Shown piece by piece: positions 7,528 to 58,504 of a stretch of DNA of 58,577 bases. Both the position numbers and the translations under genes were made by a program. The first letter of the stretch is position 1, and the number at the start of each line of letters is the position of its first letter. Below the pieces are notes generated by a model, which did no database searches, was not told where the DNA came from, and was given only the letters and a program-made list of their open reading frames with translations. This DNA comes from a virus, in IMG/VR virus record IMGVR_UViG_3300036851_000446, positions 1 through 58,577 of that record; one strand, 5' to 3'.

Positions 7528-7906
7528 CGGGCTCGACGGTGGAAGGGGGACGGGGCGTGTCTGGCCCTACCACCGCCGAGGACTTGCGGCGGAGCCACAG
7601 CCACTTCCCGACGAACGGGATCGAGTAGCGGTTGTCGGCCAGCCAGAGCACTTGGCCCACGACGGGGATGGCCATGGCGCAGCCGCGCTTGCGGTGCGGG
7701 ATGACCATTCGTCCGCAGTCACCGCAGCGGCCACGGTCGAGCGAGCCGATGCAGATGTCGTCGTGGAGGGTGATGAGCGACTCGTCGAGGTGGTGGACGG
7801 CGTCGAGGAGCACGCTGGCTTCGGTCGCGTCGGCCGGGGTCCCGAAGTGGCGGACGACGCCGTCAGCGCCATTGAGGAACCGGACGAGCGTCTCGGTCTC
7901 GGTCAT
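7490..7906 (-). CDS. Hypothetical protein with CxxC and hydrophobic segment, 138 aa
   Basis: Starts MTETETLVRFLNGADGV. A helical N-terminal half (ASVLLDAVHHLDESLITLHDD) is followed by CGDCGRMVIPHRKRGC (about residues 61-76), a hydrophobic stretch (AIPVVGQVLWL) and a proline-rich tail. Directly downstream of, and overlapping, the XRE regulator gene at 7903, so it is probably expressed with it. Function unknown. Confidence 0.6.
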   Translation of the reverse strand: MTETETLVRFLNGADGVVRHFGTPADATEASVLLDAVHHLDESLITLHDDICIGSLDRGRCGDCGRMVIPHRKRGCAMAIPVVGQVLWLADNRYSIPFVGKWLWLRRKSSAVVGPDTPRPPSTVEPASRRPQTPSGPA

Positions 7907-8886: not shown

Positions 8887-10329
8887 CTATAGCTTCACCC
8901 CGTCGCGGTCGAACACGGCGATCCGGGACGTGTCGAACACCGAACCCCGCCGCGTCGAACGGGCCACGACCACCCGCGACAGGAACAGCCGCACCATCCG
9001 GCGGCGCTCGTCGCCGGTCATCCCGGGCCACTCCTCGGCGACCACCCCGGGGTCCACGTCCATGGTCGTCGGCGGGAGCGCCGCGAGCTCGGCGTTGATC
9101 CGGGCGCGTTCGGCCACCAGCTCTGCCCGGGCTTCCTCCCACTCGTCGTCGTCGAGGCCGTCGCCCCGGGCCCACCGCCCCGCCAGCCGGCGGCGGCGCC
9201 CCTCCAGTTCTCCCAGCGCAGCGGACAGCCGCTTCCTGTCCGCGGCGTGCACGTCCCCCGCTGCGACGCGGGCGGCGAACTCGTCGGACCGCAACCGCTC
9301 GAGCAGCACCGAGGTGACGTGTTCCTCGAGCGGCGCAGCGCCGACGTAGACGTGACCGCACGGCACACCGTCGGGGTGGACGGACCGGGCCTTGTGGCAG
9401 GCGTAGACGTTGCGGCGCTTTCCCCGGTTGGTGCTCGTCGAGCCGACCAGGTGAGCGCCGCACGCGCACAAGCCGAGGCCGCCGGTCAACAGGTAGCGCC
9501 TCGCCGGCCGCGACCGGGTCCGCGACTCGAACAGGTCGACGAGGCTTTGCCACGTGACCTCGTCGAGGATCGGCTCCCACTCCCCGTCGCCGATGACCTC
9601 GCCGCGGTGGACCCGCTTGCCGGCGATCGTCGGGGCTGACAGCATCTGGCGCACGGAGCCGACGGTCCAACGCCCGTTGCGGCGGCCCGTCGCTCCGCGG
9701 GCGTCCAGCTCGCGGCCGACCGCGGCGAGCGACCAGCCAGCCAGGACCGCTTCGGCCGCCCACCTGGCCGCGGCTGCCTCGTCGGCGACGACGACGAGCC
9801 GGGACCGCTTCCGTCCGTTCTCGATCACCTGATGGTGGCGGTAGCCGAACGAGTACCCGCCGGACGGCCGGCCCGACGAGGCGAGCCAGTCGAGCTTCTC
9901 GTTGGTCTTGACCTTGATCCCCTCCACGTACTCCTTGGCGCCGACGCCCTTGTAGCGGGCGCCGGCTGATTGGCCGGCGACGAGTGATGTCCAGCCGTCG
10001 CGGTAGCCGAGGACCCCTTCGACGCCGGCGGTGCGGAACACGGTGATGAGCCGCTCGAGCTCGTCGGGCCGGCGGGTCAGTCGTTCCTGGTCCGACGTCG
10101 TGACCTGGGTGACGGTCCGGGTGAGGACGTCAGCTTTGAGGCGCTCGTAGTCGTCGCGGACCACGTCTTCTCGTTCGCCGGAGGCGTCGGGGTCGGCGTA
10201 GTAGCGGATGGTGCAGCCGGGCCAGCGGCTGTGTGCGGCGGTGGTGCCCAGTTCGTGCTGGGTGTCGATGTTCTCGGTGCGTCCGCGTAGGCGGGAGAGA
10301 CGGGCGTAGACGCCGACGACCTCGGTCAT
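8887..10329 (-). CDS. int: Large serine recombinase (phage integrase)
   Basis: 480 aa. The N-terminal resolvase domain starts VGVYARLSRLRGRTENIDTQ, with the catalytic serine in ARLS. The recombinase domain follows, including SSGRPSGGYSFGYRHH, as does a zinc ribbon with CACGAH and YACHKARSVH...CGHVYV at about residues 285-330. A coiled-coil region (LEGRRRRLAGRW) comes before the C-terminus. Catalyses attP x attB integration through a serine-DNA intermediate. It is next to the immunity genes; attP should be close to one end of the gene. Length is at the short end for large serine integrases. Confidence 0.93.
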   Translation of the reverse strand: MTEVVGVYARLSRLRGRTENIDTQHELGTTAAHSRWPGCTIRYYADPDASGEREDVVRDDYERLKADVLTRTVTQVTTSDQERLTRRPDELERLITVFRTAGVEGVLGYRDGWTSLVAGQSAGARYKGVGAKEYVEGIKVKTNEKLDWLASSGRPSGGYSFGYRHHQVIENGRKRSRLVVVADEAAAARWAAEAVLAGWSLAAVGRELDARGATGRRNGRWTVGSVRQMLSAPTIAGKRVHRGEVIGDGEWEPILDEVTWQSLVDLFESRTRSRPARRYLLTGGLGLCACGAHLVGSTSTNRGKRRNVYACHKARSVHPDGVPCGHVYVGAAPLEEHVTSVLLERLRSDEFAARVAAGDVHAADRKRLSAALGELEGRRRRLAGRWARGDGLDDDEWEEARAELVAERARINAELAALPPTTMDVDPGVVAEEWPGMTGDERRRMVRLFLSRVVVARSTRRGSVFDTSRIAVFDRDGVKL

Positions 10330-33912: not shown

Positions 33913-34327
33913 CGCTTCGCACTAGATCAAGTAGCGCCACCCAATCGGTGACGCGGACTCGGTCGTCAGTCGTGCGCTCCACGACTCCAGCACTCTCAAG
34001 ACGCTTCAAGTCGTGCTTGAGTCGATCCGATGAACGCCGACCATCTGACTCGCCGGCGCGCTTCCGGCGAGCACCTGAATACCAACGGACGCCGCGCATC
34101 TCTGATCGAAGATTTCGATAGGCCCTGCGTCCATCTGAGTCAGATCTGACCGTGCCGGCGTCGAGGGGCTCCTGCGTTCCGCCGATGCGAGCCGAACCCG
34201 CTGGTGTCGCTTCTGCGTACGCAGACCGCAGCGCTTCTCGGTCTGCGTAGTCCTCAGCGTCAACGTTGGCGCAGATCAGACGTGCGAGCATCCCGAGCCG
34301 CGGAGGCTTCGTCTTGGGTTCGTTCAC
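33902..34327 (-). CDS. Winged-helix-like protein, 141 aa
   Basis: GTG start overlapping the upstream stop. VNEPKTKPPRLGMLARLICA, a variable middle, and C-terminal SSDRLKHDLKRLESAGVVER then TTDDRVRVTDWVALLDL, which looks like the recognition helix and wing of a winged helix. Base use is less GC-rich than its neighbours, so it may be a recent arrival. Could regulate the cassette. Confidence 0.5.
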   Translation of the reverse strand: MNEPKTKPPRLGMLARLICANVDAEDYADREALRSAYAEATPAGSARIGGTQEPLDAGTVRSDSDGRRAYRNLRSEMRGVRWYSGARRKRAGESDGRRSSDRLKHDLKRLESAGVVERTTDDRVRVTDWVALLDLVRSDDE

Positions 34328-35958
34328 GAGTCCACCCACTTTTCGTCGGTACCACGGCCGTCGACGGTGTACGAGCGCTTGATCTGCCCGTCCGGCGAGT
34401 ACATCCACAACCGGTACCGGTGCCACCCGGCCAGCCCGTAGTCGCGCCAAGCGGACTCGACGACGCTGTGGAGCTTGTCTTCGATCATCCCGACGTAGCC
34501 CTCGGGGAAGTCCTCGGCCAGTAGGCGCCGGTAGAACCCGGTGTTCGCCAGATGGGGGCGCTGCGACCACTGCACCGTTCGCAACAGAGGCGCACCATGG
34601 ATGTCCTGCGGGTCCCGGTCAAGCATCAGGTGCTCGTGATCCGGAAGCACCAGCGCTTCGTGATGCAGGCGGATCAGGTCAGCCTCACCCGACAGACACG
34701 TCGCGATGAGCGCCGGCCAGTCGATCGGGCAGTCGGTGACGATCGGGCAGTCGTGCTCCACGAACAGCACCAGCGGTGTGCGCACCATGTCCAGAGCCCG
34801 GCGGGTCAACCCGACCTGGTGTAGGTGCTCGTCGTGGACGACAGGCAGGACCCGGTCCCATTTCGTGCCGCTGAGCCAGAGCAGCCGGTTCAGGTACTCC
34901 TCGTAGCGGGGCCGGTAGTGCTCCTGCTCAGGGCGGACCCCGTCGCACATGACCAGGATCTCGGCGTCGGGCAGCCAGTGACGCACCGACCCGATGGTCT
35001 GCTCGATGATCGACGTGTCCGGATGGGCGGCGATCGGCGACGTCGGGACCACTACCGTGATCTCGCCAGGTTCCGGTAGCTGCTCGGAAAGGCGCCTGAC
35101 CGTGTCGCTCACCCGCGTCGCCAGGTCCCGCTTGTAGCGCTGCCACCAGGCCGAGCACCGGTTCGCCAACCTCGGCCACGTCGCGTCGACCAGCTCGACA
35201 TGCCGCGGGAACGTCTCCCACGCCGAGAGCCGCGGGAACGGCGCACCCGGCAGCACCAGCGGCCAGTACCACGCCTGGTCGTCGCCGTGCGTCACGTCGT
35301 CCACGACCGGCACGCAGCCGGCCTCGAGCGCCTCGGCGACCCGGAACGTGTCGACCGTCTGCGGACCCGCCGGGCACGGGATCAGGCGGACGCCCGCCAG
35401 CCCGCGTGCGTACTCGCCGTGGCCGAGCCCCTGCGTGAACCCCGGCGTCTCCACCAGCCGCCCGCCGGGTAGATCGCGCAGCGCTTCGACGCAGGCCTTG
35501 CGGCGGGAGTTGTTGACCTGGCCGGCGAAGAACCATCCTCCCTTGTCTGGACGGTCGATGTCGCGGAGCAGACCGGGGAGGTGCGGGGGCCAGCCCACCG
35601 GTAGCACCCAGTCGACCCGGTCCGAGTCGTGCGGGGTCTGCACCCACACGGCCATGTTCGGATGGTTGAGCTTCTCCAGCGGGAACACCCGCTCCTCGTC
35701 GCTGGTGAGGATGACCAGCGCCCAGTCGAGTTTGGACAGCTGCTCGTTGATGTCGTCGACGTCGTCGGCGTGGTGGCGGGCCGGGATGACCAGGACGGCG
35801 CCAGCCGATTCGCTCTTCTCCCACTGGATGATGCGCCCGTCGTAGATATGGTGCTCGAACTCGTAGCCCGTCGCCCACGACCGGCCCGACAGGACGGCGT
35901 CGACCATGGCCTGGTCCCAACACGTGATGTGGCTGTCCCACCAGATGACCGGGATCAC
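34324..35958 (-). CDS. Two-domain glycosyltransferase
   Basis: 544 aa from a GTG overlapping the upstream stop. The N-terminal half looks exostosin/GT-B-like (GWFFAGQVNNSRRKACVEAL; DTFRVAEALEAGCVPVVDDV, the donor-site E). The C-terminal half starts EITVVVPTSPIAAHPDTSII, has LVLFVEHDCPIVTD (GT-A DxD-like site) and ends with KWVDS. Fused enzymes of this kind build disaccharide units. Central member of the cassette. Confidence 0.75.
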   Translation of the reverse strand: MIPVIWWDSHITCWDQAMVDAVLSGRSWATGYEFEHHIYDGRIIQWEKSESAGAVLVIPARHHADDVDDINEQLSKLDWALVILTSDEERVFPLEKLNHPNMAVWVQTPHDSDRVDWVLPVGWPPHLPGLLRDIDRPDKGGWFFAGQVNNSRRKACVEALRDLPGGRLVETPGFTQGLGHGEYARGLAGVRLIPCPAGPQTVDTFRVAEALEAGCVPVVDDVTHGDDQAWYWPLVLPGAPFPRLSAWETFPRHVELVDATWPRLANRCSAWWQRYKRDLATRVSDTVRRLSEQLPEPGEITVVVPTSPIAAHPDTSIIEQTIGSVRHWLPDAEILVMCDGVRPEQEHYRPRYEEYLNRLLWLSGTKWDRVLPVVHDEHLHQVGLTRRALDMVRTPLVLFVEHDCPIVTDCPIDWPALIATCLSGEADLIRLHHEALVLPDHEHLMLDRDPQDIHGAPLLRTVQWSQRPHLANTGFYRRLLAEDFPEGYVGMIEDKLHSVVESAWRDYGLAGWHRYRLWMYSPDGQIKRSYTVDGRGTDEKWVDS

Positions 35959-36596
35959 GTGTCCCACCGTTCGCCTTCGAACTCGGGCCAGTAGCCGACC
36001 GGGTTGTCGGCGTTGTCGAACGGGTGCTCGTAGGTGGGTTCCTGCCACGCACCGGGGTGGCGGCCCCATTTCTTCTCGAAGTAGACGATGCGGGGCTCGG
36101 CCGGCGCCACGACACGCCCTTGACGCACCGAGTGCCCCATGCCGGCGTCGGCGACGTCGACGGGGACCTTGTCCCACAGCTGGCCGCCGTTGCCGTAGAC
36201 GAGCTGGTAGCGGACGCTCAGATCCAGGTCGTCGAACCCGTACGGCGAGTAGTTCGGATCCCACTTCCCCACCGCAGCGATCGTGTCGCAGTGGAAGGCG
36301 ATGAGGTGCCAGCCGAACACCCCGGCGGCTTCGACCACCCGGTGGCCGTCCATGCGGTCGAGGTGGTCGATGAAGTCCAGACCGCCGGCGGGACCGAACC
36401 GCAGCGCGGCCGACATGACAACCAGCCACTCGGTGCCGTTGACCCGCATCTGGTCGATGCCGAGGTTCGTGGCCCGCATGATCCCGATGTTGTGTTCGCT
36501 GTTGTCGACCTCGTACACGTTGAGCCGACACGTCTCGGCGAATGCGTCGCGGTAGGACCGCAGCACCCAGGGCAGCACCGCCGTGTAGGTGGTCAT
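35955..36596 (-). CDS. Family-2-like glycosyltransferase, short
   Basis: 213 aa. MTTYTAVLPWVLRSYRDAFA at the start; NSEHNIGIMRATNLGIDQM and WLVVMSAALRFGP correspond to the GT2 nucleotide-binding region, with the DxD position replaced (MSAALRF). YGFDDLDLSVRYQLVYG matches the acceptor-side ED motif. The missing Asp at the metal site makes activity uncertain. Confidence 0.68.
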   Translation of the reverse strand: MTTYTAVLPWVLRSYRDAFAETCRLNVYEVDNSEHNIGIMRATNLGIDQMRVNGTEWLVVMSAALRFGPAGGLDFIDHLDRMDGHRVVEAAGVFGWHLIAFHCDTIAAVGKWDPNYSPYGFDDLDLSVRYQLVYGNGGQLWDKVPVDVADAGMGHSVRQGRVVAPAEPRIVYFEKKWGRHPGAWQEPTYEHPFDNADNPVGYWPEFEGERWDT

Positions 36597-37270: not shown

Positions 37271-37974
37271 AGGTGGTGTTCTTCGTGATCGATGGCGAGC
37301 ACTTCCTCGCGGTAGCCGCAGTCGCCCATGAAGGCGCTGAGCTGGGCGGGAGTGTCACGGTGGGTGTCCATCATGAACTGGGGATGGACGCTGATCCACA
37401 CCATGGGTCGGTGCTGCTTCAAGACCCTTTCAGCGCCGATCATGACTCTCAATTCGGCGCCTTCGACATCGCAGCTGATCGCGTCAGGCGGCTCGATGAT
37501 CGTGGCCACGGTGTCGATCCGCAGACGCGGGATGTCCGGGCGCTCGCACAGGTTGCAGAACCCGTGGTCACCGATGATCGGCCCGAGTGACGACGTCGGC
37601 CACAGAATCCCGGGCCACTCGCGTCGCCCGAGGTGCTCGACGTCACGTTCGCCGTCGTGGTCCGCGGCGAAGCCGGGGAACGTCGCTAGCGGAGTCAGTT
37701 CGTTGGCCTCGAAGATCGCCCTCGGGTTCGGCCAGACCCTCGCGTTCGGCTCGAACAGAGCGACGTCGTTGCCCCACGACGCCCACAGGGCCGGGAGGTC
37801 GCCTTCCTCTGCTCCGATGTCGTACACCGTGTGGCCGCCGTCACCCAGGTGGTCGTACATCGACGCGATCCGCTCCTTCTCCCAGAACGGCCACTCGGGG
37901 CGGACCGCTCGATGCTCTGGAAGGCGCAGGCTCCAACGCTCGTTGATGAGCGTGTCGATCATCGGGACCGTCAC
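37246..37974 (-). CDS. FkbM-family methyltransferase
   Basis: 242 aa. AdoMet motif I TVYDIGAEEGDLPALWASWG (about residues 48-67), motif with FEPNAR, and the FkbM signature AISCDVEGAELRVMIGAERV followed by PMVWISVHPQF. FkbM enzymes methylate hydroxyl groups of sugars and polyketides. Within a run of glycosyltransferase genes it most likely O-methylates the glycan. Confidence 0.85.
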   Translation of the reverse strand: MTVPMIDTLINERWSLRLPEHRAVRPEWPFWEKERIASMYDHLGDGGHTVYDIGAEEGDLPALWASWGNDVALFEPNARVWPNPRAIFEANELTPLATFPGFAADHDGERDVEHLGRREWPGILWPTSSLGPIIGDHGFCNLCERPDIPRLRIDTVATIIEPPDAISCDVEGAELRVMIGAERVLKQHRPMVWISVHPQFMMDTHRDTPAQLSAFMGDCGYREEVLAIDHEEHHLFTPIERT

Positions 37975-38942
37975 AGCACACCCCGCTCAGTCAACACGTC
38001 GACGAGCTGGCGCATGCGGACCTCGTAGGTGGCTGTGGCGAGGACGTGCTCCCGGCCGGCCTTCGATATCCGGTCCCGCAGACCGTCGTCGTGGAGCGCA
38101 CGATCGATCTGGGCCCGCAGCCCGGGCCAGTCGCCTGCTTCCCAGCAGAGCAGGTGCTCGCCGTCCTCGTAGAGAGTCCCGTCGGTCACGCCCTCGACGT
38201 GCGGGTGGACTAGCACCCCACCCCGGCCGACACATTCCGGAACGCGGTCCGAGATGTAAGCCCGGTTCTTGCCGGTCCCGACGAGGCAGGAGTCGCCGAC
38301 GAGGACGTGGACGCTGGCGTACAGGTCCCGCAGGGCCTCACCACGCACCGCGGGTTCGCCGGGCGCCGGCCAGAACTTGCAGCGCTCGCCGTAGATGTCA
38401 CCCAGCCAGGCGATCAGCTCGGCACGGTGCGCCGATTCGGGGTGGTAGCCGCCCTGCCACGAGCCGACGAACGCAACCTCGGAGGCGAGATTGGCTCGGT
38501 ACGTCCCCGGCTCGCACTCGGCCTCGGACATCCCCGGCGGGAACCACACATGATTTATCCCGAGGGCCTCGAACCGATCCTGATTGCCACCATCGGCGGT
38601 GCACACCAGGTCGCACTGGAAGAACGGCTCCGACAGTTGAGGCTCGCGGCGCAGGTCGAACCAGCGGTCGAGGTGGTAGCCGACGGTCGGGACGCCACGG
38701 CGCCGCAGAGCCTCCAGGAACCGGCTCTGGCGCTCGTGTGTGCGCTCGGGGGCGAACCCGTGCGTGTGGGTCCACAGCAGCACGTCGACGTCGTCAGGGA
38801 CCGCTCCCGGCGACCAGTCGAAGCGCTGCTCGTGGAGCGGCAGCACCCTGTGGCCGTTGGTCTCGAGCGCTCGGGCGACGTGGTTCTCCGTCGAATGCGG
38901 AGCCGAGTCGGGGCCGACGTTGCCAACATAGACAACGCGCAT
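37971..38942 (-). CDS. GT-B glycosyltransferase (CgeB-like)
   Basis: 323 aa. MRVVYVGNVGPDSAPHSTEN, N-terminal Rossmann half with DDVDVLLWTHTHGF, VGYHLDRWFDLRREP and EVAFVGSWQGGYHPESAHRA, which resembles the CgeB/GT4-like join. The donor half has SDRVPECVGRGGVLVHPHVE with the conserved Glu. First gene of the cassette in the direction of transcription. Confidence 0.78.
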   Translation of the reverse strand: MRVVYVGNVGPDSAPHSTENHVARALETNGHRVLPLHEQRFDWSPGAVPDDVDVLLWTHTHGFAPERTHERQSRFLEALRRRGVPTVGYHLDRWFDLRREPQLSEPFFQCDLVCTADGGNQDRFEALGINHVWFPPGMSEAECEPGTYRANLASEVAFVGSWQGGYHPESAHRAELIAWLGDIYGERCKFWPAPGEPAVRGEALRDLYASVHVLVGDSCLVGTGKNRAYISDRVPECVGRGGVLVHPHVEGVTDGTLYEDGEHLLCWEAGDWPGLRAQIDRALHDDGLRDRISKAGREHVLATATYEVRMRQLVDVLTERGVL

Positions 38943-39217
38943 CAGTCGAAGTCCTCATCCGTGCCGAGCTTGGCTACCTCGGCCCGCAGTCGCTTCATCC
39001 CCCACCGGCCGTCGACAGGGATGCCGGCGGCCTCGAGCTTCGCCGTCAGCGCCGCCTTCTCGTCGAGCGGCGGGTCGACGACTGCCGCGGCCTCGGGCGT
39101 GTTCGAGGCGAGAATCCAGCCGAGCTTCGACGAGCGTTGCTCGAACGCTCGCCGGCTCACGCGGGATGTCACACCCGGGTGGTCGGGGTGCCGGATCTCG
39201 ACGAGCTCAGCTTTCAC
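38942..39217 (-). CDS. SAP-like connector region protein, 91 aa
   Basis: GTG start overlapping the upstream stop. N-terminal VKAELVEIRHPDHPGVTSRV is beta-like and the C-terminus TAKLEAAGIPVDGRWGMKRL then RAEVAKL is a SAP-type helix-hairpin, common in small head-region proteins of actinophages. Between the connector gene and the glycosylation cassette. Confidence 0.65.
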   Translation of the reverse strand: MKAELVEIRHPDHPGVTSRVSRRAFEQRSSKLGWILASNTPEAAAVVDPPLDEKAALTAKLEAAGIPVDGRWGMKRLRAEVAKLGTDEDFD

Positions 39218-39567
39218 GAGGTCGCTCCGAGGGTCGATGGGGACACGGGCACACGCCGGGCCCACAGACGGCGCTGCTGGTCGATCTGGTCGAGGATCTG
39301 CTGGCGCCGAAAGGTCTGGCCATCGGTGATGAACTCGAACCGGCCCACGGCCTTGCCCCGCTTGCGCAGCCATCCCTCGGCGATCGCGCGTGCGCACCCG
39401 CGGCGGTCGTAGGTCGGGGTCCACGCGTCGAGGTCGGGTGTGTTCCCGTCTGCGTCGTCGACCTTCGCGAGGTCGAGGAGGGAGACGACCTCGTCCGGGG
39501 ACAGGACGGGGTCGCTGTCGGGTTGGAGGTTGTCGGTGATGTAGGCGAGCGCCTCGGCCTGATTCAT
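39214..39567 (-). CDS. Head-tail connector (gp6-like)
   Basis: 117 aa from ATG 39567. MNQAEALAYITDNLQPDSDP, then VVSLLDLAKVDDADGNTPDL and YDRRGCARAIAEGWLRKRG; all helical, the pattern of HK97 gp6-like head-completion proteins. Directly follows the capsid gene and its terminator hairpin. Confidence 0.65.
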   Translation of the reverse strand: MNQAEALAYITDNLQPDSDPVLSPDEVVSLLDLAKVDDADGNTPDLDAWTPTYDRRGCARAIAEGWLRKRGKAVGRFEFITDGQTFRRQQILDQIDQQRRLWARRVPVSPSTLGATS

Positions 39568-45728: not shown

Positions 45729-46481
45729 TCACAGCATCCTGAGCTGCTCTGCACCGTTCCAGGCGTTGTCACGCTTCAGGCTGTTGCAACCGAAGTGCGC
45801 GAGTTGGAGGTTCGCCTCGGTGTGCGCACCGCCTTGGGATGCAGGAAGGATGTGGTCCAGCGTCCTGGCTAAGGGATGCGGGACCTGAGCGTCACGTGGA
45901 ACCTTCTTGCCGCAGAGCTGACACGTCCACTGGTCACGCACGTAGATGCGCCACCGGTTGACCCTGGCGCTCGTAGGTGAGCCCCGTCTAGCAATGCGAT
46001 GTCGACTTGCTGCCTCACGCCTATTGCATCTCTTGCTGCAATAGACGGCGAAGTGGGCACTGAGACAGGGTGGGACGAAGGGGACGCCACAGGAGTGGCA
46101 CGGACGGGGTGTCATGTCGGGGGGTGGCTTGCGGGGGTGATCACTCTGGTGCGGGCAACTGCCGTGGCAGTAGGTCGTGTCGCACGTCTTGCACACGCGC
46201 CACTTGAGCTTCACCTCAAGGCGAGCCCGTCCCGAGCCGTACATGTGACAGCTGTTCGAGCAGTAGCGCCCGTCATACCTCGTGGTCGAGTAGGTGCGGT
46301 CACACCATGCACAGCGCTTCTCGACGGGTACGAGCGGGGCTCTGGGCACCCTCGCTCGCCTGCGACGTTGAGCGTCGTTGTTGGCACATCGTGTGCTGCA
46401 CCACTTCGATGGGCCTCGACGACCAGGCGGTGGAGTAGGCAGCGTGGCGCCGCAGCCGGCGCAGGTTCTAGCGTCGGCCAT
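45729..46481 (-). CDS. HNH endonuclease with multiple zinc fingers
   Basis: 250 aa from ATG 46481 (GAGAGGTG upstream). Four zinc knuckles in the N-terminal 170 residues (CAGCGATL; CAWCDRTYS; CKTCDTTYCHGSC; CHSCGVPF), then the HNH core: CQLCGKKVP, ARTLDHILPASQGGAHTEAN and LQLAHFGCNSLKRD. DNase probably acting on packaging substrate or as a selfish element. A second HNH gene lies just upstream. Confidence 0.85.
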   Translation of the reverse strand: MADARTCAGCGATLPTPPPGRRGPSKWCSTRCANNDAQRRRRARVPRAPLVPVEKRCAWCDRTYSTTRYDGRYCSNSCHMYGSGRARLEVKLKWRVCKTCDTTYCHGSCPHQSDHPRKPPPDMTPRPCHSCGVPFVPPCLSAHFAVYCSKRCNRREAASRHRIARRGSPTSARVNRWRIYVRDQWTCQLCGKKVPRDAQVPHPLARTLDHILPASQGGAHTEANLQLAHFGCNSLKRDNAWNGAEQLRML

Positions 46482-49608: not shown

Positions 49609-50123
49609 GTCGGCTCCTTGGTAAGGATCGGGACCTCGAGCTTGTCGAGGGCCCGTCGGTGGACCTTGGGGAGGTCGAGCAGCGGTTCGCCGCACAGGTC
49701 GTGGGCGAGGGCACGCAGCCACCAGGCGTCGACCTGGTTGTCGTCGGCGACGTCGAGGCCGGTGCGCTTGTAGAGCTCCATGCGCATGTCGGGTTTGGGG
49801 GCGTTGCCTCGGCCGGTGGCGTAGGTCTTGAGCGTGGCGGGCGTGATCGTCAGCCACGGCAGCGTCAGGTAGTCGAGGATCGCCACCCGGATGGCACCAT
49901 GGAGCATCCCGAGGGCGCCGGCCGCGGCGTTGCGGATGCCCATCGGCAGATCCTCGAACACGACAAGGGTGGGGGTCGTCTCGTCGATCAGGTTGCCCAC
50001 GGCGTCACGGAGGTCCTGGAGGCGCCAATCACCCTTGGCCTTCGTCCTGATCGTCGAGAGAGCGCCGTCGGGCCGGGCGATGCCGGTGGCGCTGATGGAC
50101 AGGTCGAGGGCGAGGACCTTCAT
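49605..50123 (-). CDS. RuvC-like Holliday junction resolvase
   Basis: 172 aa. KVLALDLSISATGIARPDG carries the first catalytic Asp (D7), VVFEDLPMGIRNAAAG the catalytic Glu, and DVADDNQVDAWWLRALAHD the C-terminal Asp pair of the RNase-H fold. Resolves recombination and replication junctions before packaging. Starts at ATG 50123, overlapping the CoiA-like gene's stop. Confidence 0.82.
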   Translation of the reverse strand: MKVLALDLSISATGIARPDGALSTIRTKAKGDWRLQDLRDAVGNLIDETTPTLVVFEDLPMGIRNAAAGALGMLHGAIRVAILDYLTLPWLTITPATLKTYATGRGNAPKPDMRMELYKRTGLDVADDNQVDAWWLRALAHDLCGEPLLDLPKVHRRALDKLEVPILTKEPT

Positions 50124-51403
50124 GCGCTCTTCTCCACATGGATCGCCTCGAACCGAACCGGCGTGCCGCAACGTTCTGCCTGAGCCCTGCACCGACGACA
50201 GCAGAGCCATCGCTCGTCCTCGTGGCGATGGATGGCCACGTACGCGGCTTCGGTCTCCCGGCAGGTATCGCAGGTCGCCTTCAGCGATGGCGGCTTGCTG
50301 CGGTGGTCGTTGGGCGGCCAGTGGCGCCCTCGGCATCGAGCGGTCATCTCGCACAGCACGCCCAGGCGGTTGGTCGGTAGCCACATGGCCTCCCCGCAGA
50401 CATCGCAGGGCGCCCAGTGGTGGGTGTGCGTCTGGGCGCGCAGCCTCTTGGGCGACTTCGTCAGGTCGGGGTACTCGACCCGCAGGCCGCCGTTGAAGAG
50501 ACCGCACAGCGCCAGGACGACCTGTCGTTCGGCTGCCTTGGTCAGCTTGGGCAACGTCTCGACGAACGACACCTTCGCCGGATCGGGGATCTCGCGCAGC
50601 TCGATCGACTGCTCGAGGTCGATGACGGCATGACGCTCGCACTCCTGGACGTACTTACCGCGAGCGTGGGGTGAGATGCGCTGGCGGCTGAGGCGTCGAG
50701 CCGTGCTGCCCGACGAGGCCGCCAGGTCGAGATAGAACCCGAAACTCTCGAGGAAGACGTACCGGAGCTCCTTGCGGAGGATGCGCGGGATCACCGCCTC
50801 GATGGGTTGCGCCGGCGCCCGTAACCCCGTCTGGTCGAGGGCCACGCCATCCACGACGATCGACAGGTCGTCGTCGACCCGGAGTGCCTCGACGTCCTTG
50901 GACCGGTTCGCCCATCCACGCGGGCCCTGATGGGTCCAAGTGACTCGACCGCCGAAGTTGTCGATGTAGCGCTGTGTACGATCGTGAACGTCGGCTGCGG
51001 TGATATGTGAAACCTGCGCTTCGAGCACTCGGCTCGCGTTGGTCTTTGGATCTACCGCCAACACATCAGCACGGCAGTTGTTACCGAAGACCTCAACATC
51101 AACACTCCAACCGGCATCTCGCGCCGCTTGAGCGAGAGCCGACTTGAGCATGCCGTGCTCCACCGACTCGTCGGTGTGGTAGCCGAGCGCTCGGCAGCGT
51201 TCAGCCTCGCCGGGGTTGTGGGCGAAGATCATGAACGGGTCGGGGCCATCGACAAGATTCTTGATGTGAGCCCTGCCCTTGCACCCCGCACAACGGATCG
51301 CCGGGGGGTCGGCGTGCAAGGCTCGCTTGTCCGCCGGCGAGAGGCCACCCGGGTGTTTCGAGTCGAGGATCGTCAGCTCACCCTCGACGAGCGCCGTGAT
51401 CAT
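50120..51403 (-). CDS. CoiA-like nuclease family protein
   Basis: 427 aa. N-terminal CAGCKGRAHIKNL zinc site (about residues 38-50), then the PD-(D/E)XK core resembling competence protein CoiA: AARDAGWSVDVEVFGNNCRA, DVLAVDP and SRVLEAQVSHIT (E-x-Q). The C-terminal region has three further Cys groups (CDVCGEAM; CDTCRET; CCRRCRAQAERC). Such proteins occur in Streptomyces chromosomes and phages; a role in DNA processing is inferred. Directly downstream of the candidate origin. Confidence 0.7.
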   Translation of the reverse strand: MITALVEGELTILDSKHPGGLSPADKRALHADPPAIRCAGCKGRAHIKNLVDGPDPFMIFAHNPGEAERCRALGYHTDESVEHGMLKSALAQAARDAGWSVDVEVFGNNCRADVLAVDPKTNASRVLEAQVSHITAADVHDRTQRYIDNFGGRVTWTHQGPRGWANRSKDVEALRVDDDLSIVVDGVALDQTGLRAPAQPIEAVIPRILRKELRYVFLESFGFYLDLAASSGSTARRLSRQRISPHARGKYVQECERHAVIDLEQSIELREIPDPAKVSFVETLPKLTKAAERQVVLALCGLFNGGLRVEYPDLTKSPKRLRAQTHTHHWAPCDVCGEAMWLPTNRLGVLCEMTARCRGRHWPPNDHRSKPPSLKATCDTCRETEAAYVAIHRHEDERWLCCRRCRAQAERCGTPVRFEAIHVEKSA

Positions 51404-51436: not shown

Positions 51437-51606
51437 GCGCGGGGACCGCGGGGAGACGCGGGGAGCTTTTCACCCACTCCTATATGAAAAACACTAATCA
51501 TGATCCAAAATCTTCCTCGCGTTGGATAGAGAGGTCCCCGCGTCTCCCCGCGGTCCCCGCGCTTTGTTGTCCGTTCGAGTGCACATCGGTCCCCGCGGTC
51601 CCCGCG
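51437..51606. repeat. Candidate replication origin: iterons around an AT-rich core
   Basis: A 28-bp perfect inverted repeat (51437-51464 and 51535-51562) made of CGCGGGGA-type units encloses 70 AT-rich bases (51465-51534), very unlike the GC-rich surroundings. Two more GGTCCCCGCG units lie at 51588-51606. The element lies beside, and partly within, the 3' end of the primase-helicase gene, in the 94-base gap before the CoiA-like gene. This layout resembles iteron origins with an unwinding element. Confidence 0.6.
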
Positions 51607-54161
51607 GGCGCAGCGGCCTGTACGCCACCGAGCGGAACCACCGTCCACGCCTTGGTCTTGTTGCGGTTGAGGCCGGCCTCCACGACCGCCATCTCGAGGG
51701 CCCCGTGGCGTCGTCCATCCCGGCGCCTGAACGCCTCTCCGAGCCTCTTGGCGAGCTGTGGGCGCCCGATCGCGTCCACGAGCTCGGCCGGCACCACGTA
51801 GCGGAGATCGGTGTACTCCGACTCGATCTCGTGGGCGATCTCGGACGCCGAGACACTGCGCGAGCCAAAGTGCTCATGTAACGCCGACAGGAACGCTTCC
51901 CATGATTCGGTTTCAACATCAAGACTGGTATGAAGCTGTTCGAGATTAGCGAGGAACGCTCCCAGCCCGGCATGGTGCAAGGTGCCTGCGATCGCATGAG
52001 CCCATGGGGTGAAACCACCGATGGTGGGCTCCTTGGGGGCCGCAGGTCGACCCGCAACCCACCACGAGCGACAGATGGTCAACAGGGCGGCCACGAGGTC
52101 CCCCCGGTGGATCTGGGCCCAGCCAAGAAGGTCGGGGTGTTTGAAGCCACTACGGGTGTAGGGACGGGCCTGGTGGGCGTCGAGCCTTATGCGGTAACAG
52201 CGCCGGCCGATGTCACCGCCGACGGCGATGTTGTTGCCGGTGGCCACCCAGGTGCAGCGGTTCGGCACGGCGATGGTCTCGGTACGTCCGAGGAGGCGGT
52301 CGGTCCACTCGTCGGTCGTCAGTACCGCCGCAAGGCTCGGTGAGCGGATCGCGTCGTCGATGTTGTCGAGCACCACGAGGGTGGGGCCTTCGATGAGGAC
52401 TGCCGTGAGCATCTTGCGGATCTCGTCGTCCATCTTGGCTAGTGGCCGAGCTGCTGCTGGGCGCCCGGTGGCGATCACGGCGGCCACGTTGGCGAGCAGC
52501 CCCTTGCCTGTGCCCGGTTCGGGGGCATCCACGAGCGCCAGCGGCACCTGGCCGCTGATGGCTGGCCGCATGAGCGGCGTCAGCAGCAGCCCGAGAGCGT
52601 TGACGCGGTCGTCGGGGGTGTCGAACGGGAAGTCGGCGAGCAGCTCGAGTAGCAGGCCGCCGGCGGTGGCCACGTCGTCACTGGACGGCCGCTGCGGGAT
52701 CGTCGGCACCTCGAGGCCGTTGGGGATGTAGAGGCGCCGGGTGACCGGGTCGTAGCCGGGCTCGTCGTGCACGGTGCCGTCGGGCCTCAGGGTGGGCAGC
52801 TCGGTGACGGCCTCGAGTGGGGGGAAGGGCCAGCCTGGCGTGGCGAGGACGTCGTTGACGATGTCGAGCGGCGGGGGGACGTGGCTGACGTTGCCGTCCT
52901 TGTTCATTCGTACGGTGCGGCTCACGGCCGAGATGCGGTTGCGCAACTGGTAGGCGCCGACCGGCTCGACGATCGGGCGGCCGTTCTCGTCGACCCGCAC
53001 CCGGGTGAGCGCTCCGGCCCGGATGAACAGCGATGGCGGGTCATTGGCCGCCAGGAGGCAGGCGATCGTCTCGATCGCCACGTCCGCGAAAGGGCGGCTG
53101 TTGACCTGGATCACCACTGCACCGCGCTTGAGGACTTCGCCGGTGGCCGGGTCGATATCGAGCGGCAGGACGTTGACGTGCTCGCGGCGCCACTCGGCGG
53201 CGGCCTCGGTGAAATCGCCGTCGTGGTTGAGCCCGACGTGCAACTGCCAAGCGGTGAGCAGCCGCCGGCCGGTGACGAACTCGGACGGCATGGCGATCGA
53301 TGTCGACCATGGTGTGGCCCTGCCGTTGTCGGCCCACACGGTCAGTGATGAGCCCTCGGCGAGCTCCTTGCCCGGGCGGGTCCAGTGCATGTTGCCGTTC
53401 CGGTCGACGTGGTGACGCCGGAACCCGGCCACCTCGAGCACGTCGTCGACGCCCAGATCGAACCCGGGCAGGGTGCCGCCATCGCCGGACTCCCCTACCG
53501 GGATGGTTCGCTGCTCGAGCTCGTGGTCCTCTTCGAGCATGTCGAATCCCCGGGCGACGGCAAACAGGGCGTCGCGCTGGGCGGGGCTGATGGTGGCGAT
53601 CGTCTCGAATCCACCCTCGACGAGTACCCACGGCCGGCCGCTCGAGTGCGTGCGTCCCCTCGATGGGGCAACGACGACGAACCCACCTTCACCGCGGGTC
53701 TCGATGAGAACCTTGATCCGCTCTTCGGGGTTGGCGATGAGCTCGATCGAGGTGGCAGGCCGGCGGGCCAGCTTGGTGTTGCCGGCGACCTGCTCGCAGC
53801 GATAGAGGACGTGCCATCCGAGGCTGGGGGTGCGCTCGGCGTAGCCGCTAGCGATGTGCGCCCAGAGATCGAAGATGCCGGCGAGCTGCATGCGCTCGCG
53901 GAACGCGGCCACGACGCCCTCGTCGACGGCCCGACCCTCGAACTCGAGCATCTCGAGGTCACCCGAGACGCGACCGCAGACGATGCCCATGCCACGGTGG
54001 TCCTCGTCGTCGAACCACTGCTGCACCTGGGCGCGCTGGGGGCGTTCTTCCTGCCACTGCTTCCACTCCCCCAGCGGCTTCTTGGTACCGTCGCCGGCGG
54101 CACGGATGACGCAAAGACCCGCGTCGTAGGCCTCGAGAGCTGCGTCGGCAACTTCGGTCAT
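51498..54161 (-). CDS. Primase-polymerase/helicase replication protein
   Basis: 887 aa from ATG 54161 (GAGGAGGG upstream). The N-terminal prim-pol-like domain has MGIVCGRVSGDLEMLEFEG (where DxD is usual, ExE is seen) and IETRGEGGFVVVAPSRGRTH (about 153-172). The C-terminal helicase has Walker A DAPEPGTGKG (545-554), Walker B PTLVVLDNIDD (593-603) and a sensor TWVATGNN. The last 45 residues (AGTAGTD; SAGTAGRRGD) are encoded by the origin-like iterons. Primes and opens phage DNA for replication. Confidence 0.8.
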   Translation of the reverse strand: MTEVADAALEAYDAGLCVIRAAGDGTKKPLGEWKQWQEERPQRAQVQQWFDDEDHRGMGIVCGRVSGDLEMLEFEGRAVDEGVVAAFRERMQLAGIFDLWAHIASGYAERTPSLGWHVLYRCEQVAGNTKLARRPATSIELIANPEERIKVLIETRGEGGFVVVAPSRGRTHSSGRPWVLVEGGFETIATISPAQRDALFAVARGFDMLEEDHELEQRTIPVGESGDGGTLPGFDLGVDDVLEVAGFRRHHVDRNGNMHWTRPGKELAEGSSLTVWADNGRATPWSTSIAMPSEFVTGRRLLTAWQLHVGLNHDGDFTEAAAEWRREHVNVLPLDIDPATGEVLKRGAVVIQVNSRPFADVAIETIACLLAANDPPSLFIRAGALTRVRVDENGRPIVEPVGAYQLRNRISAVSRTVRMNKDGNVSHVPPPLDIVNDVLATPGWPFPPLEAVTELPTLRPDGTVHDEPGYDPVTRRLYIPNGLEVPTIPQRPSSDDVATAGGLLLELLADFPFDTPDDRVNALGLLLTPLMRPAISGQVPLALVDAPEPGTGKGLLANVAAVIATGRPAAARPLAKMDDEIRKMLTAVLIEGPTLVVLDNIDDAIRSPSLAAVLTTDEWTDRLLGRTETIAVPNRCTWVATGNNIAVGGDIGRRCYRIRLDAHQARPYTRSGFKHPDLLGWAQIHRGDLVAALLTICRSWWVAGRPAAPKEPTIGGFTPWAHAIAGTLHHAGLGAFLANLEQLHTSLDVETESWEAFLSALHEHFGSRSVSASEIAHEIESEYTDLRYVVPAELVDAIGRPQLAKRLGEAFRRRDGRRHGALEMAVVEAGLNRNKTKAWTVVPLGGVQAAAPAGTAGTDVHSNGQQSAGTAGRRGDLSIQREEDFGS

Positions 54162-54235
54162 GCCCTCCTCTTTCGCTGCGATACGTAGATGAGGTGGTCG
54201 GGGCCGGGACCCCAGAGCCCCGGCCCCCGCCGATG

Positions 54236-54484
54236 TCAGGTGCCGACGAGGAGAGGCTTCTCCACGGCCCACAGGTACACCGGCTTGTCACCGAAGAAGC
54301 CCTGTTCCTCAGCCGGCCCGATGCGCCAGACGTCAGCACTCAGCTGCTCCAATGGATATTTGGTGTTGGCCTTGCCAATGCGCTCGACGCGGGCTTCTAG
54401 AGCGGCCCGATCCGAGTAGACGGCATGGACCACGCGGTCATCGTCGCTCTCCTTGAGCAGCACCCAGACGGTCTCGTCAGCCAT
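54236..54484 (-). CDS. Hypothetical protein, 82 aa
   Basis: From ATG 54484. MADETVWVLLKESDDDRVVH, AVYSDRAALEARVERIGKAN, then KPVYLWAVEKPLLVGT; an alpha/beta pattern. It follows the OB-like protein and lies just before the primase gene. Function unknown. Confidence 0.6.
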   Translation of the reverse strand: MADETVWVLLKESDDDRVVHAVYSDRAALEARVERIGKANTKYPLEQLSADVWRIGPAEEQGFFGDKPVYLWAVEKPLLVGT

Positions 54485-57781: not shown

Positions 57782-57930
57782 GTCGTCACCCACCCACGGT
57801 TGGTGGCTTCGGCGATGGCCCTCAACCGGCGCCTGGCATCGGCGGCCAGGGCGGCGACCTCGTGGTCCTCGAGCCCGTCGAGGTCGACCCGGTGCACGGT
57901 GTGGCCGGCGGCCTCGAGGCGGGCGGTCAT
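57778..57930 (-). CDS. Small helical protein, 50 aa
   Basis: MTARLEAAGHTVHRVDLDGL, then HEVAALAADARRRLRAIAEA. ATGA overlaps at both ends. Encoded directly after WhiB. Function unknown. Confidence 0.5.
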   Translation of the reverse strand: MTARLEAAGHTVHRVDLDGLEDHEVAALAADARRRLRAIAEATNRGWVTT

Positions 57931-58193
57931 GCCACGCCTCGTTGCTCTCGGCGCATTCGCTCGCGTTCGCGTCGGGACTTGCCGCCCCAGATACCGAACT
58001 CGATGTTCTCGTCGAGGGCGTACGCAAGGCAGGGCCCACGGGACACACACCCGGAGCACACTTGGCGGGCTTCCTTGGTCGACTGGCCCAGCGACGGGAA
58101 GAAGAGATCGGGGTCGAGCCCGAGGCAGTTGGCCCGGTCCATCCATGAGAGGTCGCGAGCCTCGGGGATGCGGGGCATCTGTCGTGGCCACAT
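57927..58193 (-). CDS. whiB: WhiB-family transcription factor
   Basis: 88 aa. All four cluster cysteines are present: ANCLGLDPDLFFPSLG, VCSGCVSRGPCLAYAL; then EFGIWGGKSRRERERMRR, the family G-I/V-W-G-G turn and basic tail. WhiB proteins hold a 4Fe-4S cluster and bind the host sigma-A; phage copies (for example in TM4) can act as dominant regulators and cause superinfection exclusion. Start ATG 58193 overlaps the preceding stop. Confidence 0.9.
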   Translation of the reverse strand: MWPRQMPRIPEARDLSWMDRANCLGLDPDLFFPSLGQSTKEARQVCSGCVSRGPCLAYALDENIEFGIWGGKSRRERERMRREQRGVA

Positions 58194-58504
58194 CACGCCG
58201 CCGCCCGTTCGTGGATGCGCCGCCGGACCATCCACCGGTCTTCGCAGCCGGGCACGGTGTAGAGGGGGCAGACAACCCGGGCGAGCTCGAGCGGCGTGGG
58301 CGCCTTGGCCCGGGCGACGGCGGGTCGTGCGACGCGGGTGTGGCGGGTGCGGCCGTTGTGGGTTCGGCGGAGGTCGCGTTCGGCGGCGGCGAGCTCGACC
58401 TCCGCGTGGTGGGCCCGGTGTAGGGCTGCGGCGCGTTCGTGGTCGAGCCAGACGATGATGGCGAGGAGGGCGACGACGCCGGTCGCTATGAGGGGGTCAT
58501 GCAT
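58193..58504 (-). CDS. Small membrane-anchored basic protein, 103 aa
   Basis: MHDPLIATGVVALLAIIVWL forms an N-terminal membrane anchor; then a coiled, basic cytoplasmic region (ERAAALHRAHHAEVELAAAE; GRTRHTRVARPAVARAKAPT) with two cysteines (VCPLYTVPGC). Its 5' end lies in the terminal repeat, so the upstream neighbour is the gene at 47-262 across the junction. Directly upstream of WhiB and overlapping it by one base. Confidence 0.65.
   Translation of the reverse strand: MHDPLIATGVVALLAIIVWLDHERAAALHRAHHAEVELAAAERDLRRTHNGRTRHTRVARPAVARAKAPTPLELARVVCPLYTVPGCEDRWMVRRRIHERAAA

Follow-up and report, generated by a model that had tools for sequence, protein, structure and literature searches.

A mirrored array of short iterons at the 3' end of a Prim-Pol/helicase gene: a probable phage replication origin

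The stretch of DNA considered here, called the window, is an entire virus record of 58,577 bases. It carries an exact direct terminal repeat of 127 bp and for this reason probably represents a complete phage genome of 58,450 bp. The genome is about 68% GC and encodes tail, portal, and terminase proteins. It also encodes a WhiB-type regulator and a large serine recombinase (Table 1), a combination suggestive of a temperate actinobacterial phage. Searches of the window for Rfam families, tRNAs, and tmRNAs gave nothing. Two long open reading frames have no Pfam match above the curated cut-off (34324-36531, minus strand, 735 aa; 37328-39412, plus strand, 694 aa); the latter overlaps long minus-strand frames and may be no gene at all.

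The feature of interest lies at the end of a gene that encodes a primase-helicase, P0001. The first-pass annotation had described perfect 28-bp arms made of CGCGGGGA units around 70 AT-rich bases in a GC-rich genome, and scans for inverted repeats and for GC content confirm that description. The arms lie 70 bp apart, contain three copies each of the 8-bp unit, and can be extended without gaps to 40 nt at 88%. The next best perfect inverted repeat in the window (spacer up to 300 bp) has arms of 17 bp, 11 bp shorter, and of the two pairs of that length, one is a 28-bp arm pairing with extra CGCGGGGA units. In 20 Markov-1 sequences, the longest inverted arm was 15. The core between the arms coincides, but for a shift of one base, with the 70 bp that have the lowest GC content anywhere in the window (51464-51533). 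The unit itself is not over-represented, since it occurs 13 times in the window versus 10.8 expected, a count reached by 34 of 100 shuffles. Eight of these 13 copies, however, crowd into 170 bp in mirror order, and it is this clustering and order, not the frequency, that is unusual. Three pairs of units are mirrored about a dyad centre at the stop codon of the gene. As a single strand of DNA, the region could fold into a 28-bp stem with a 70-nt loop (-60.8 kcal/mol, z -8.5).

Table 1. Positions of the proposed origin, the initiator gene, and other features of the window.
Feature	Position	Strand	Basis or remark
Large serine recombinase	8887-10329	minus	PF07508, PF00239
Neighbouring gene downstream, outside the origin; weakly resembles CoiA nuclease	50120-51403	minus	PF06054, E 0.00023
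Outer arm, three CGCGGGGA units (51438, 51447, 51457)	51437-51464	plus	Non-coding, 34 bp before start codon of next gene
Core of 41% GC (AT-rich), where strands are proposed to open; holds initiator stop codon	51465-51534		GC scan
Initiator gene (P0001): Prim-Pol, D5/SF3-like helicase, C-terminal fold	51498-54272	minus	PF09250, phrog_19930, predicted structure
Residues 885-924 of P0001, tail partly encoded by units, predicted disordered	51501-51620	minus	pLDDT under 50
CCAACGCGAG, match to degenerate core motif CacACGCGCG of relatives	51516-51525	minus	Motif EM search
Second arm, three CGCGGGGA units (51535, 51545, 51554)	51535-51562	minus	Inside initiator reading frame
Two extra CGCGGGGA units without mirror partner	51590-51606	minus	Inside reading frame
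Part of P0001 homologous to pWTY27 RepA (helicase plus C-terminal domain, residues 392-879)	51636-53099	minus	BLAST, structure match
WhiB-type regulator	57927-58235	minus	PF02467, E 1.9e-20

Counted from the first GTG, P0001 has 924 aa. Translation more likely begins at the ATG at 54161 (Met residue 38), since disorder is predicted for the initial 35 residues and Prim-Pol starts at residue 45. The Prim-Pol domain is recognized by PF09250 (E 2.3e-12) and the helicase region by phrog_19930. The usual motif I of Prim-Pol domains is D-x-D, a form observed also in relatives considered here; in P0001 the motif (residues about 104-119) reads LEFEGR, that is, E-x-E, and similar E-x-E motifs occur in four relatives (L066, L067, L071, and L076). 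An AlphaFold2 model based on 46 sequences is of high confidence over approximately residues 395-880. The solved structures closest to it, by VIA-align, are the SaPI5 primase-helicase (7ola_C, Z 15.1 over 364 residues), poxvirus D5 (8apl_A, Z 14.2) and E5, AsfvPrimPol, PriRep1 with dsDNA (Z 13.1), and the helicase region of NrS-1; MCM chains gave Z 11.9 and below. According to the model, then, P0001 has the core fold of a D5/SF3-type helicase. A confidently predicted fold of a helix and two strands continues up to residue 880, and whole-chain alignments with 7ola and 7pds reach residues 871-885. A search of PDB sequences by hmmsearch, using an alignment of eight sequences (A1), gave no useful match; entries of the Cake/Scone type matched over a stretch of 26 residues only and were disregarded.

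Since the stop codon of P0001 (51498-51500) sits within the core, not only the two extra units but also the right arm is translated. The first-pass annotation had placed the extra units in the 3' end of the primase gene, which is correct, but the right arm is coding as well. It had also read the coding units as AGTAG/GTAG repeats. This holds for the first four of the five, which share one frame and are translated as (A)GTAG-type repeats, but the fifth reads R-G-D in another frame, because the spacer between units goes from 1 to 2 bp. In a relative, L021, units use all three reading frames. Because units switch frame within one gene and the other arm is non-coding, the repeat pattern is maintained at the level of DNA.

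Relatives of the helicase gene were collected in two ways. By tblastn, 92 phage and 22 plasmid matches were found, and ten of these records were examined. A search of viral contigs with A1 gave 93 matches, 80 of which were kept; the same contigs yielded no relative to P0001 alone, and P0003 alone found only itself. The resulting 91 loci (80 viral, 10 annotated records, and the window) were reduced to 88 in 64 clusters by dropping three that had no 3' region (L081, L097, and L100). The clusters span phages, plasmids, and one Methanosarcinales virus. At each locus, the region from -350 to +350 bp around the stop codon was compared with control stretches of the same locus. A first test covered -150 to +350; all controls were beaten by 49 of the 80 non-identical loci, but the closest relatives were missed, and the region was widened after inspection of where their arrays lie.

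In 49 of the 64 clusters, the test region beat every control of its own locus by at least one of two measures, as opposed to 1 of 64 when a single control stretch per locus was drawn at random. Taken separately, the repeated-word and the dyad-symmetry measures each succeeded in 37/64 clusters, and both did in 25/64. One locus (L036) is the same contig as another (L006) first found through the repeat, and leaving out L036 and the window gives 47/62. Seven of the 49 positives (L033, L051, L061, L087, L088, L089, and L099) appeared doubtful or unusual by eye and were kept out of the analysis of cores. Neither measure detected an array in the other 15 clusters, including L030 and the phages phiAsp2 (L012) and Shambre1 (L015). 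L044 was scored negative; its array is intact but 3.8 kb downstream of the helicase gene, from which it is separated by two inserted minus-strand reading frames (L044:5673-8895 and 9273-9467), ImmA/IrrE-like and HD-like by eye.

The closest viral relatives have helicases 45-49% identical to P0001. Among them, conservation of the repeats, a check that the first-pass annotation had proposed, was examined. The array lies wholly within the 3' coding end in L021, L022, L023 and its duplicates, and L006/L036, and more weakly so in L029 (those of L022 and L029 were recognized by eye, and neither beat its controls in the counted test), but none is visible in L030, whose helicase is 45% identical, or, by eye, in L033 (42%). 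A 17-mer scan of the viral contigs reached seven loci. In just one of them, L006, is there an inverted pair at a related gene; the single matches in L001-L005 and L007 were read as chance. In most relatives, the array falls entirely after the stop codon, with the dyad centre 60-230 bp past it.

The sequence of the unit varies from relative to relative while the geometry remains constant. Units are GTGGGAAC in the plasmid pWTY27, AAACCCGG in pCM32, GAGTGACAC in Constance, TACCCGCA in vir525 (host given as Methanosarcinales), and GCAGGGACC, ACTACCCGC, and GCGGGGAC in L011, L019, and L037, respectively. There is a family resemblance among them in their richness in G: 19/64 test regions contain CCCCGCAA, and the corresponding counts for two control regions are 0/64 and 3/64. 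Another conserved element, TGACCTGCGG/CCGCAGGTCA, was observed in 8/64 test regions and in 1/64 of each of two control regions. In L014, L018, L021, L069, and L074 it is found close to where the helicase gene ends, and it or its core lies inside the mirrored runs of L014, L018, and L069; none was seen in the array of the window. Units mirror one another about one exact point: there are six such pairs in L037 (the most symmetric array), and L014 and L069 have five each.

The cores were compared after 18 clusters without a clear array had been dropped by hand and after setting aside two without an inner arm (L057 and L060) and nine with cores exceeding 130 bp. Of the 35 that remained, 33 are lower in GC than their flanks (median difference 0.11). 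They share a degenerate motif, CacACGCGCG, with an EM score of 66.4, the highest score in 12 null sets being 35.7. Some cores (L020, L034, L063, L083, and others) are less AT-rich and consist of alternating pyrimidines and purines (CACACGCGCG, TACGCGCG), possibly another route to easier strand opening.

The primase joined to the helicase is not always the same. It is Prim-Pol in the window, L022, and L085, a DnaG-type zinc ribbon/Toprim primase in L037, and an NrS-1-type primase in L057. The counted test was positive in the window, L037, L057, and L085, and the array of L022 was found by eye. Judging from these cases, the array goes with the helicase, whichever primase is fused to it.

One relative found by tblastn, pWTY27 of Streptomyces sp. 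Y27, has been studied experimentally. Its RepA is 31% identical to residues 392-861 of P0001 over 486 aa (E 7e-68), and its RepB shares PF09250 with P0001, although the direct BLASTP match is weak (E 3e-4). Replication of pWTY27 is reported to be bidirectional and to need repA, repB, and a non-coding stretch of 300 bp (321-620) directly 3' of repA; RepA binds this stretch, leaving footprints at 405-447 and 462-509 (PMC3583192, Wang et al. 2012). A symmetry scan using only the sequence places the dyad centre of pWTY27 at 453.5, which falls in the gap between the footprints, and of the unit pairs that the scan found, precisely the two inner ones are covered by the footprints. The likeness to the window extends to the homologous helicase, the Prim-Pol partner, the inverted, short GC-rich iterons where the helicase gene ends, the exact dyad, and the core between arms. 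The differences are that pWTY27 is a plasmid while the window is a phage, that pWTY27 has two separate proteins in place of one fused protein, that its unit is GTGGGAAC rather than CGCGGGGA, that it has five mirrored pairs rather than three plus two unpaired units, and that its array is non-coding whereas that of the window is partly inside the gene. In having a RepA homologue, a Prim-Pol partner, and 3' inverted iterons on one dyad centre, the window resembles a RepAB-iteron replicon of the pWTY27 type.

The first-pass annotation had taken the locus for a likely replication origin, and that reading gains support both from the tested homologue and from the presence of an array at the same gene end in 49/64 clusters. 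Given the arrangement, its conservation, the homology to a tested pair of initiator and origin, and the predicted fold, all computed here, 51437-51606 is very probably a theta-type replication origin bound by P0001. We infer that it works in the following way. The C-terminal domain of P0001 would bind the CGCGGGGA units as double-stranded sites, and the inverted arms would set helicase assemblies face to face across the 70-bp AT-rich core. The core would melt, two D5/SF3-type hexamers would load so as to face in opposite directions, and priming by Prim-Pol on the exposed strands would lead to bidirectional replication. Since such an origin overlaps the end of the initiator gene, part of the disordered tail of P0001 would be nothing other than translated repeats. 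GC skew, which the first-pass annotation had suggested as a check, did not bear out the position: the detrended skew has its minimum at 45,791 and its maximum at 7,888, with no extreme near 51.5 kb. The test is a weak one, because nearly all genes of that part lie on one strand.

Perhaps the locus is an origin but the initiator recognizes an extruded stem-loop (cruciform) and not units in duplex DNA. The 28-bp stem that the arms are able to form would allow it, and the spacers between units of the window are complementary too, as are 9/9 spacer bases in L059. There are precedents: the Sulfolobus plasmid pRN1 requires an intact stem-loop of 100 nt located 3' of orf904 (PMC4234260), and the authors of the pWTY27 study suggest that a folded structure is recognized by RepA (PMC3583192). 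In the 40 clusters with at least two mirrored pairs of units, complementary bases amount to 249/572 (44%) in the spacers between mirrored units, 363/1069 (34%) in the core, and 219/823 (27%) in the outer flanks. Units keep their exact mirror positions even where the spacers are mostly unpaired (10/48 complementary in L020, 6/32 in L023). Since unit positions are kept better than spacer pairing, the comparison speaks more for an initiator that reads units in the duplex than for one that reads a pure hairpin. Also, the window has extra units beyond the palindrome, and pRN1 is described as having no iterons (PMC4234260). Recognition of a cruciform is for these reasons unlikely.

A palindrome between two co-directional genes might instead be regulatory, either a terminator or attenuator or else an operator through which the replication operon regulates itself. 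As a side function, the initiator could indeed act as a transcriptional repressor at the site it binds. But a scan for terminators gave only an antisense match on the plus strand, no promoter-like site was found, and a loop of 70 nt is unlike a terminator. Moreover, the entire array is within the reading frame in L021, L022, and L023, and the arrays of relatives extend over 300 bp with mirrored spacing. A regulatory element in place of an origin therefore seems very improbable.

Clusters of repeats also mark centromere-like and attachment sites, so the locus might serve in partition or incompatibility, in the manner of parS, or in recombination, as attP does. Among the genes scanned, no adjoining partition gene was recognized, the serine recombinase is far off, and the conserved neighbour of the arrays in relatives is the initiator helicase. 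The equivalent stretch of pWTY27 is reported to be needed for replication itself (PMC3583192), and a site of either kind is extremely improbable. Finally, that the repeats are nothing but the coding sequence of a low-complexity protein tail, as the translation of five units, four as AGTAG-like repeats, might suggest, deserves practically no credence: it is largely refuted by the changes of frame and by a non-coding arm perfectly complementary to the other, and, besides, the tail is predicted to be disordered and in most relatives the array comes after the stop codon altogether.

Several other systems combine these elements in their own ways. In phage lambda, the origin lies within the initiator gene and its iterons are bound by the initiator, but these iterons are in the middle of the gene and the initiator, O, is no helicase. 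Phage P4 (alpha/ori/crr) likewise has iterons bound by its initiator, alpha, which has a Toprim primase. The SaPI Rep and PriRep1 proteins (PDB 7ola, 7pds) resemble P0001 in their D5/SF3-type helicase fold. SaPI Rep and SCCmec Cch2 are described as having a C-terminal DNA-binding domain and a short-iteron origin downstream of the helicase gene, but their iterons (AAGTG in SCCmec) and their hosts are different (PMC7581432). The orf904 protein of pRN1 unites Prim-Pol and an SF3 helicase with a winged helix, which in P0001 is putative, and in pRN1, as in the window, a large palindrome lies 3' of the gene, where in pRN1 it forms the origin; it is the eight CGCGGGGA units within 170 bp that set the window apart from this plasmid, described as iteron-free (PMC4234260). 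The idea of an origin at this place is not wholly new, because similar stem-loop origins, palindromic and in the same position, have been proposed in several bacteriophages (PMC4234260). In the literature searched, no description was found of a dyad-iteron rule for phages. As far as these searches show, three things are new: a phage member that straddles the place where its initiator gene stops, the array's shift into the reading frame within this clade, and a rule counted over the whole family.

One may go further, albeit tentatively, with a view whose chances we put somewhat below even. According to it, a dyad of G-rich units of 7-9 bp, together with a core bearing a shared opening motif, would form an exchangeable origin module. 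The module, read by the C-terminal domain, would travel with the D5/SF3-type helicase through actinophages, actinobacterial plasmids, and Methanosarcinales viruses, whatever the primase. By its exact mirror geometry, a pair of helicases would come to stand head to head, as a viral counterpart to the double hexamer of MCM or T-antigen. In the clade of the window, the array would have slid into the reading frame of the initiator, and the protein tail would therefore be a by-product of the origin.

A guess made at first look has thus become a concrete candidate for an origin, one with an experimentally tested homologue. It also raises a question that can be put to the test, whether such initiators read units in the duplex or an extruded stem-loop, as there are relatives that keep the geometry without the pairing of spacers. 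For phages and plasmids that have not been cultured, the arrangement offers a rule by which origins may be located: look to the 3' end of the gene encoding the D5-like helicase.
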